NCBI RefSeq assembly: GCF_023370775.1 | Contig: NZ_JAMCCQ010000005.1 | Coordinates: 248,001-312,000 of the forward strand | Length of the DNA: 64,000 nucleotides | Source of the DNA: Marivita sp. GX14005 | GTDB taxonomy: Bacteria; Pseudomonadota; Alphaproteobacteria; Rhodobacterales; Rhodobacteraceae | Reading direction: 5' to 3' | Shown: piece after piece, positions 1,356 to 2,268 of the stretch | Layout of the letters: the number at the start of each line of letters is the position of its first letter | Numbering within the stretch: the first letter of the stretch is position 1 | Position numbers and translations under genes: made by a program | The notes under the pieces: generated by a model | The model's input: the letters and a program-made list of their open reading frames with translations, nothing else | The model's database searches: none | Told to the model about the DNA's origin: nothing

Positions 1356-1373
1356 CGAGATTTGTTCGCGTTT

Positions 1374-1388
1374 GTTCTCATAAAGTTC
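1374..1388 (+). promoter_or_regulatory. LexA (SOS) box, GTTC-N7-GTTC
   Basis: GTTCTCATAAAGTTC is an exact match to the alphaproteobacterial LexA operator GTTC-N7-GTTC known from Rhodobacter and Caulobacter. It lies 18 bp after the recG stop and 53 bp before the start of the 42-codon gene, a normal operator position. A further GTTC at 1364-1367 is spaced by only 6 bp and is not a full site. Confidence 0.75.
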
Positions 1389-1441
1389 TTTACATCGCGT
1401 TAACGATGTGAGAACAAAGTGGCAACACGGAGGGCAAGACG

Positions 1442-1570
1442 ATGATGAAGCGGATCAAGACTTTCCACGACATGACCGGCACCCGCGCGGGACTCGTGCA
1501 GGATGCGCTCGGCGCGCTGTCGCTTGTGGTCATGCTGGTCGGGGCGCTGCATCTTCCGGTTCTTGTCTGA
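1442..1570 (+). CDS. 42-residue membrane peptide, probably SOS-induced
   Basis: This 43-codon frame starts with ATGATG at 1442 and has a strong Shine-Dalgarno, GGAGGG at 1429-1434, seven bases upstream. The product has a basic, polar first half (MMKRIKTFHD...) and a hydrophobic second half from about residue 22 to the C-terminus, so it should be a single-span inner-membrane peptide. It is preceded by a perfect GTTC-N7-GTTC LexA box and followed by a strong intrinsic terminator, which makes it a self-contained transcription unit. Caulobacter has a comparable LexA-controlled micro-protein, SidA (about 29 residues, membrane-bound, blocks FtsW/FtsN). I infer a similar damage-response or division-inhibitor role from size, topology and operator, not from sequence similarity. 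Confidence 0.65.
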   Translation: MMKRIKTFHDMTGTRAGLVQDALGALSLVVMLVGALHLPVLV

Positions 1571-1701
1571 CGCGTTGCCTTTTCTGCCTGCGTGTTGCGC
1601 CGCCAAGCCTCACCCCGATGCGTCCTGTCCCGAGAGATGCACCTGTCCCGGAAGGTATCCCGCCTTCCACGGCCTGAGCGGTGTTCAACGAACGCACCTT
1701 G

Positions 1702-1736
1702 CCGCCGCCTTCATTTCGAAGCGCGGCGGTTTTTTT
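1702..1736 (+). terminator. Rho-independent terminator
   Basis: CCGCCGC (1702-1708) pairs with GCGGCGG (1723-1729). An inner CTTC/GAAG extension is present, and seven T residues follow at 1730-1736. It terminates plus-strand transcription from the SOS-box unit. The 130 bases between the peptide stop and this hairpin hold nothing else I can support. Confidence 0.8.
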
Positions 1737-1748
1737 CGCTTTTAGGGC

Positions 1749-2201
1749 TTATGCGGTTTGCGGATCGGCAAGCTGCGCCGCCGCTTCGCTCGCGGCATCG
1801 AGCGTGAGCAGGATGGAGGCATGGCGGTTCTTGAACGCGCCGGCGGGGCGCAGCACGTCCAGATCACCGAAAGGCGCGCTCGGTGCCGGGCCATCCTCTT
1901 CTAGCATGGCGCGCAGCTGGCGCCGCGCCGTCTCGATCTGCTCCGGTGTGCAGCCGATGATCGCATCGCCCACCACCGACGCCGCCGCCTGCCCGAGCGC
2001 GCAAGCCTTCACATCCTGTCCAAAACCGCTGACCTTGCCATCCGTGAGCGCGAGATCGACCGTGACCGTGGAGCCGCAAAGCGGTGCGCGTTTCTTGACC
2101 GTTGCGTCGGGCGCGGGCAGCCGTTGCAAATACGGGATATCGGCGGCCAGTTCGAGGATGCGGCCGGAATAGAGCTTGATGAGATCGGTTTCGCCGGACA
2201 T
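1749..2201 (-). CDS. IscU/NifU-type iron-sulfur cluster scaffold protein
   Basis: A 150-residue protein of the NifU N-terminal/IscU fold, which assembles Fe-S clusters on conserved cysteines. The cluster cysteines are visible in APLCGSTV and KACALGQAA, with a third in IIGCTPEQ. I chose the ATG at 2201 (MSGETDLIKL) because a GAAGGGA Shine-Dalgarno precedes it. An in-frame start nine codons upstream lacks support. It is divergent from hisI across 67 bases that must hold both promoters. No sufB/C/D or isc genes are adjacent, so its exact pathway cannot be told here. Confidence 0.85.
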   Translation of the reverse strand: MSGETDLIKLYSGRILELAADIPYLQRLPAPDATVKKRAPLCGSTVTVDLALTDGKVSGFGQDVKACALGQAAASVVGDAIIGCTPEQIETARRQLRAMLEEDGPAPSAPFGDLDVLRPAGAFKNRHASILLTLDAASEAAAQLADPQTA

Positions 2202-2268
2202 GGCTTTCCCTTCTGCGTGTTGCCTCATAGATAGAGCGCGGGCATGGGATGCAAAAGGGGGTTTTGCA

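Follow-up and report, generated by a model that had tools for sequence, protein, structure and literature searches.

What does the short unit directly behind recG in Marivita sp. GX14005 produce, and is a membrane peptide its only product? The original prediction for this locus, which lies in a 64,000-nucleotide stretch of DNA (the window), described a LexA box, a strong Shine-Dalgarno, a 42-codon frame and a strong terminator as a complete mini transcription unit. It took the encoded peptide for a damage-induced, SidA-like candidate inhibitor of cell division. The box, the strong Shine-Dalgarno, the 42-codon frame and recG ahead of them were each located in the sequence (Table 1). The mini transcription unit itself had to be redrawn: its box, Shine-Dalgarno, frame and terminator exist, but it extends to position 1736 and includes a structured 3'UTR RNA that had been overlooked. 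The predicted terminator was found as well, with its stem and T-run, but it lies further downstream than predicted; a simple scan of positions 1100-1900 gave none, whereas folding and alignment did show it. The covarying 3'UTR RNA may be half of the function of the locus.

Our best explanation is that the locus arrests division under LexA control through two products, a peptide that would act like SidA and a 3'UTR RNA that is perhaps DinR- or DicF-like, the unit being a core SOS gene of the Rhodobacteraceae. We hold this reading as a whole tentatively, at slightly less than an even chance. It is supported in the sequence by the linkage of the LexA box to the peptide, coding selection, membrane-helix character, RNA structure and family-wide co-occurrence.

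Table 1. Features of the recG-linked unit and its surroundings (positions in the window).
Feature	Position	Strand	Evidence
recG end, directly ahead of the unit	1355		NCBIfam NF008164
Additional GTTC half-site, GTTC-N6-GTTC with the main box	1364..1367	+	sequence
LexA box GTTCTCATAAAGTTC, GTTC-N7-GTTC	1374..1388	+	motif scan; kept in relatives
Candidate -35 element TTTACA (putative role)	1389..1394	+	spacing to GAACA
GAACAA, inverted LexA half-site and/or -10 region	1412..1417	+	GAACA kept in relatives; operator consensus
Shine-Dalgarno GGAGG	1429..1433	+	sequence
42-aa membrane peptide ORF, stop TGA 1568-1570	1442..1570	+	ORF, profiles, alignments, dN/dS
C-terminal membrane helix of the peptide with D21, G24 and LP motif	within 1442..1570	+	alignments, hydropathy
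Conserved structured 3'UTR RNA including terminator, 158 nt	1579..1736	+	covariance model 79.2 bits; covariation
RNA 5' motif UCUGCCUGC, complementary to host ftsZ Shine-Dalgarno GCAGGCGGA (9 bp, one G-U)	1583..1591	+	
Motif CCUGUCCC, copy 1	1624..1631	+	motif count, 3'UTR alignment
Motif CCUGUCCC, copy 2	1642..1649	+	motif count, 3'UTR alignment
Intrinsic terminator, 12-bp stem then T7	1701..1736	+	folds; helix 99.5% paired with covariation
Convergent NifU/SufU-like gene (159 aa), downstream of the terminator	1752-2228	-	below curated cut-offs (Pfam, NCBIfam)

Distribution of the unit and character of the peptide

The peptide was present in 23 of 41 related genomes, including all 17 of the host genus. 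A profile built from ten peptides was matched by 357 of the 390 order genomes, representing 136 of 139 genera, at a threshold of E ≤0.1, at which the weakest matches may be due to chance. Additionally, a second collection yielded 105 relatives, of which 80 were kept for comparison of the locus; recG was found immediately upstream of the unit in all 80, and the convergent NifU-like gene downstream in 50. Both the frame and the box are conserved in relatives, and the original prediction has stood at the two points where computation could challenge it.

Twenty listed genomes of the 33 without a profile match were followed up and, together with eight genomes that had a weak or no match to the peptide or the RNA, made up a divergent set of 28. 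All 28 contained recG. It was found that in 23 of them an exact box follows recG ahead of a short hydrophobic frame (frames read by eye); L195, with a frame and a box that differs at one position, brings this to 24. Neither box nor frame was seen within the stretch read after recG in the other four (L178, L180, L201 and L203). Counting only the 20 listed genomes without a profile match, 17 have a boxed, more divergent peptide. The alignment of 23 sequences showed a core of D..G..A/S... with LP at the end, in which the G is invariant and the D and P are kept in at least 90% of the sequences. The length of the peptide ranges from 31 to 45 aa, the shortest form having 31 aa. One genus, g31 (L181-L186, L188 and L191), combines a minimal peptide of 31-36 aa with a shortened 3' RNA, and GCCTGTG was kept in all eight of these RNAs as read by eye.

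The occurrence of the peptide in other alphaproteobacteria was considered and rejected, as profile A3 matched all four family members and only one of 285 other genomes, the sole match lying inside a 404-aa frame. The looser profile A5 gave weak matches outside the family in sampled genomes of the class, with a best E of 0.0087 among the matches listed, and these were taken as chance. Searches of Pfam and NCBIfam gave nothing for the window peptide up to E=1. The unit is a concrete, nearly universal candidate for a damage-induced division checkpoint of the Rhodobacteraceae, that is, the roseobacters and their relatives.

Based on 13 close relatives, third codon positions varied at 33 of 44 sites, compared to 13 first and 9 second positions, and the median dN/dS was 0.13 over 78 pairs, with a highest value of 0.38 among pairs with dS >0.05. 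The best 19-residue Kyte-Doolittle mean was 2.26, at residues 24-42; the frame has a second ATG at 1445. Hydropathy, alignments and dN/dS strongly support a real, conserved single-span peptide, and the single C-terminal membrane helix of the original prediction is confirmed in this respect. The peptide shares with the SidA type the short length and the single membrane helix. Its topology is uncertain, because the N-terminal net charge is +2 here and +1 in the consensus but -1 in the 31-aa form; judged from the sequence, an N-in orientation is likely. Inhibition of division by the peptide is plausible from its likeness to SidA and YneA, and on this analogy we consider it rather probable that the peptide would block division.

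A structured RNA behind the stop codon

Relatives keep the stretch after the stop codon, which ends in a terminator and measured 116-253 nt as cut. Common to many are a long closing stem, a GCATC...GATGC hairpin and further hairpins, and in many the terminator consists of CCGCCGCC...GCGGCGG and a T-run. A T-run of at least 7 ends 59 of the 80 measured terminators, and the unit has a conserved, structured mRNA 3' end with a U-rich terminator tail, a trait of DinR-like 3'UTR-derived sRNAs. For the structure test 35 of the 80 UTRs were chosen (alignment A2). The structure had 90.9% paired cells, compared to 31-49% in slid controls, and 17 of its 31 pairs showed changes on both sides; double-change cells numbered 95 against 24.3 in shuffles, and none of 500 shuffles reached 95. 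The tested structure was read from these same sequences, and the test therefore favours it. When the terminator was left out, 85.4% of cells were paired (79.4 in shuffles, 29-49% in slid controls), 12 of 19 pairs had double changes, which was reached by 5 of 500 shuffles, and there were 51 double-change cells against 13.8, which was reached by none of 500. The number of further pair types (30 against 27.2, reached in 50 of 500 shuffles) was not convincing. RNAalifold unaided recovered only the GCATC hairpin and the terminator.

A covariance model matched all 67 sources (66 loci and the window) with 41.9-142.2 bits, but not all of these are independent, as L079 is a training row and others are training genomes under a second handle (L019 = L123, L072 = L094), and the lowest scores come for the most part from the terminator (65 nt in L142 and L148). 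It also matched 110 of 121 genomes of the order, 104 of them at E <1e-5; usually there is one strong copy per genome, and in G093 a weak match was located away from the peptide locus. An occurrence of the RNA beyond the family was rejected, as only weak matches were obtained, in 13 of 140 genomes and with at best 26.1 bits. No Rfam match was found up to E=5 in positions 1300-1850 of the window. Ten relatives gave one Rfam match at E ≤0.5, to Ysr141, which was outside the locus and on the other strand (L106 1639-1680; 25.5 bits, compared to a gathering score of 196). An RNA that has no Rfam entry would thus come off a putative SOS promoter as part of a 3'UTR.

Two short motifs recur in this RNA. 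CTGCCTG is present in 71 of 81 UTRs, a total of 101 copies where base composition would predict 2.6, although these copies are not independent because the UTRs are related. CCTGTCC is present in 58 of 81, whereas its reversed control GTCCGTC is found in one. The median unpaired probability of the motifs was 0.67 (190 instances in 80 transcripts). The RNA element folds alike within the whole message in the five full transcripts inspected. L092 was excluded from the transcript folds; its UTR, which lacked a terminator match, had been cut at 220 nt. The Shine-Dalgarno had a median unpaired probability of 0.23 in full-length folds (58 measurable transcripts). We rejected the idea that the RNA seals its own Shine-Dalgarno, as such pairing was absent from these five folds and the 3' element folds alone there.

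The peptide could also be the sole effector, as a SidA-like inhibitor, with an RNA that works only in cis, either in mRNA stability or in strong termination before the convergent gene. We regard this explanation as unlikely, though it deserves serious weight. It agrees with the position of the RNA directly behind the peptide, its usual single strong copy, its folding independently of the coding part and the terminator being the most consistently paired helix of all. However, a stabilising hairpin does not need the kept CTGCCTG repeats, and the convergent NifU-like gene lies behind just 50 of the 80 loci. For the two-product reading the RNA would have to act in trans, and we consider the chances of this evenly balanced.

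The ftsZ gene was examined as a target because DinR of Klebsiella is reported to occlude the ribosome-binding site of ftsZ (PMC10907235). The ftsZ Shine-Dalgarno is unusual and conserved, reading CAGGCGG in 41 of 48 Rhodobacteraceae genomes (loci L239-L256 and L298-L327). The 5' motif of the host RNA can pair with it (Table 1). A pairing of CUGCCUGU with ACAGGCGG is possible in most relatives and one of CUGUCC with GGACAG in many; the core pairing CUGCCUG:CAGGCGG contains one G-U.

The tests of this pairing were mixed. Against the host ftsZ site TTTCTGCCTGC gave -16.6 kcal/mol, which was reached by none of 717 ATG candidates, the 5' motif thus pairing best with ftsZ in the host, and in G158 its strength at ftsZ was matched by 10 of 617. 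Among the host and G158 candidates, 6 of 717 and 2 of 617, respectively, matched the pairing of CTGCCTG with ftsZ, and 13 of 717 and 9 of 617 that of CTGCCTGTCC. Shuffled 10-mers equalled the ftsZ pairing in 49 and 73 of 2000 cases. The host motifs CCUGUCCC and CCTGTCCC showed no preference for the host ftsZ site, 156 of 717 candidates being as strong. An unbiased gene-level test with accessible 9-mers in four genomes, for which gene calling was crude and without annotation as in the other pairing tests, found 12 of 350, 33 of 310, 26 of 315 and 22 of 269 genes at least as good as ftsZ, so that ftsZ ranks no better than within the top 3-11%; shuffled segments were as good in 3, 21, 0 and 14 of 200. 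In a cruder test that allowed any segment, ftsZ was equalled or exceeded by 32 of the 356 host genes and by 119 of the 316 of G158; with the 5' motif alone the numbers were 1 of 356 and 94 of 316. There are 31 CAGGCGGA-N3-11-ATG sites in the host genome, 30 of which were examined, and five of these, ftsZ among them, look like gene starts (a frame of at least 100 aa, a codon-position GC bias of at least 0.2 and an in-frame stop within 200 nt upstream). A 332-aa host frame (L407:1513-2508), which had no NCBIfam match at E ≤1e-5, has the rare CAGGCGGA ribosome site in common with ftsZ.

Additionally, we compared the RNA with the ftsZ site across genomes. Of the 35 genomes with ACAGGC at ftsZ, 27 had GCCUGU in the RNA and 8 did not; it was present in 1 of 7 genomes with GCAGGC, in none of the 4 with ACAGGT and in one of the two that have neither. 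The RNA column of this table was entered by hand, and G078 and G085 were read by eye. The difference between the ACAGGC and GCAGGC groups gave a Fisher p of 0.003, uncorrected for kinship, with four of the seven GCAGGC genomes belonging to one genus. A version with an automatic Shine-Dalgarno search gave 23 of 31 against 3 of 8 (p = 0.09), with wrong sites in G007, G236, G043 and G120. In genus g60 the ftsZ site has changed to ACAGGT, and no matching change of the RNA was seen by eye. The pairing with ftsZ is a lead, not a result, and an action of the RNA on ftsZ is possible, though on balance doubtful. Should an action on ftsZ prove true, a single message of ~320 nt would place divisome activity as well as FtsZ supply under LexA control, and DinR of Klebsiella would cease to be an isolated case.

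The LexA operator and the SOS circuit of the host

The perfect GTTC-N7-GTTC box of the original prediction is present, but taken alone it is at chance level (1 found compared to 1.4 expected in the shuffled window). Throughout the host genome 123 such sites were found, compared to 79 for the reversed control motif. Chance was nevertheless rejected as an account of the box, as its linkage to the peptide is not at chance level: 77 of the 80 relatives have an exact box in the 200 nt ahead of the peptide, against a background of 0.003 per 200 nt (6 sites in 447,542 nt of flanks of the 80 loci), and the other three show near-variants by eye. The significance of the box therefore comes from its conservation in relatives and not from the motif alone. 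The first set of relatives had an exact box at 22 of 23 peptide loci, the odd one being a match inside a 425-aa frame of another family. Within the host genus the position of the box is fixed at -68 from the ATG.

The window contains more half-sites than the original prediction had listed, with GTTC at 1364, 1374 and 1385 and an inverted GAACA at 1412. A third GTTC is found within 12 nt upstream of the box in 71 of the 77 boxed relatives, and GAACA within 40 nt downstream in all 77. The consensus of 77 distinct operators was GTTC.CaAATGTTCtcAaAAAGTTCTTTACa-N10-aA.aTGAGAACAAAg.ggCAACA. The distance from a TTTACA-like element to GAACA was 17 nt in 73 of 76 measurable relatives, a spacing that would fit a -35/-10 pair beneath the LexA half-sites. 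No clear -10 consensus was seen across the operators, and the promoter is therefore one that we infer. Control of the unit by LexA, as originally predicted, is strongly supported by the conservation of the operator in relatives, and the unit would almost certainly be induced by DNA damage.

The host has a lexA gene with a box of its own 34 nt upstream. Boxes were also found shortly before a DnaE2-like error-prone polymerase gene (partial, E 1.8e-156) and a Y-family polymerase-like gene (E 2.3e-8), and before a FliG-like gene (E 2.1e-28; box at L163:1524-1538), all three assignments being below the NCBIfam curated cut-offs. The boxes at lexA and the polymerase genes suggest that the host LexA has this specificity, and the unit would thus carry a GTTC-N7-GTTC operator at its promoter in a host with a matching LexA. 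The same motif is reported for LexA of Caulobacter (PMC12700426). In Dinoroseobacter, LexA sites have been predicted at lexA, recA, dprA and flagellar, pilus and gene-transfer-agent genes (PMC6473078), and the main text of that study does not mention recG. The box at the FliG-like gene of the host agrees with the flagellar sites predicted there.

These sites also bear on the reading in which the SOS-controlled membrane peptide has a target outside the divisome, such as a membrane protease, the flagellar motor, or a component of DNA uptake or of the gene-transfer agent. We consider such a target improbable; the Dinoroseobacter sites at flagellar, pilus, dprA/recA and gene-transfer-agent genes (PMC6473078) and the box of the host FliG-like gene speak for it. 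The locus itself shows no link to such genes, its upstream neighbour being recG in 80 of 80 cases. Quite improbable is a TisB-type SOS membrane toxin that depolarises the membrane, slows growth and is silenced by LexA together with an antisense or structured RNA, for although a LexA box, a small hydrophobic peptide and a partly sequestered Shine-Dalgarno would suit it, type I toxin modules are patchy in distribution, whereas this unit is near-universal, mostly single-copy, fixed in position and strongly constrained, a weak scan of positions 1100-1900 gave no promoter-like site on either strand, and the conserved acidic residue and terminal LP of the peptide hint at a specific partner.

A proposed division-arrest mechanism and comparison with known systems

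The two-product division-arrest reading can be put as a sequence of steps. LexA would repress the unit through several half-sites until its damage-triggered self-cleavage releases it, and RNA polymerase would then read from about 1420 to 1736 in a single transcript. The first product would be the peptide of 31-45 residues, the one helix of which (D..G..A/S..LP) would be inserted in the inner membrane and would most likely stall a late divisome protein such as FtsW via helix-helix contact; the late divisome is the likeliest target because of the precedents of SidA and YneA. The second product would be the structured 3'UTR RNA, with several CUGCCUG/CCUGUCC segments and a U-tailed terminator, which would most likely pair with G-rich mRNA sites, the ftsZ ribosome-binding site being the leading candidate. 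Both products together would delay division until repair ends. The full form of this proposal, in which one recG-linked, LexA-repressed transcript halts division twice, with the peptide stalling the late divisome and the RNA shutting down ftsZ translation, is in our judgement rather unlikely to hold in every part. If it is true, the dual-route locus would parallel the dicBF pair of the prophage, but as a core part of the chromosome wired into the SOS response, with new peptide and RNA families.

No description of the peptide or the RNA, and no damage-induced division checkpoint of the Rhodobacteraceae, was found in searches of open-licence PMC papers. Each half, peptide and 3'UTR RNA, has known analogues. 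Within the same family, UdsC of R. sphaeroides is similar in that an mRNA for a hypothetical protein gives rise to a 3'UTR-derived sRNA (PMC9779115, PMC8625941). Unlike the RNA described here, UdsC is reported to be 67 nt long, RpoHII-dependent and derived from RSP_7527, and neither report names LexA in its main text. An identity with UdsC was rejected for its length and RpoHII dependence; this rejection covers UdsC and not UdsB or UdsD. A paper on Ruegeria sRNAs is silent on recG, LexA and SOS in its main text, its sRNA coordinates being outside this comparison.

SidA of Caulobacter (29 aa) is reported to interact with FtsW and FtsN (PMC4211646). Compared by description only, both peptides are LexA-controlled inner-membrane micro-proteins of alphaproteobacteria that use GTTC-N7-GTTC (PMC4211646, PMC12700426), but the present one has 31-45 aa, is confined to the Rhodobacteraceae in profile searches, and is linked to recG and a structured 3'UTR RNA. 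YneA, SosA and ChiZ are likewise SOS-induced small membrane inhibitors of division, a function that the present peptide would share by analogy. The transmembrane helix of YneA of Bacillus is reported to bind TM7 of FtsW (PMC13396833); YneA has an extracellular LysM domain that is needed for activity, whereas here the helix is nearly the whole protein.

For the RNA, a close counterpart is DinR of Klebsiella, which is reported to arise by processing at the 3' end of an mRNA under LexA control and to repress ftsZ (PMC10907235). The stretch by which DinR is predicted to pair is specific to Klebsiella, whereas the RNA described here is conserved and structured throughout the family, with a predicted ftsZ pairing. 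The dicBF operon of the E. coli Qin prophage is reported to encode a division-inhibiting protein and an ftsZ-pairing sRNA (PMC10448788), and the present unit would resemble it in that one transcript yields a small protein that inhibits division and an sRNA that pairs with ftsZ, both functions being putative here. As reported, dicBF is prophage-borne and DicA-controlled and DicB acts via MinC, unlike the recG-linked unit with its LexA operator.
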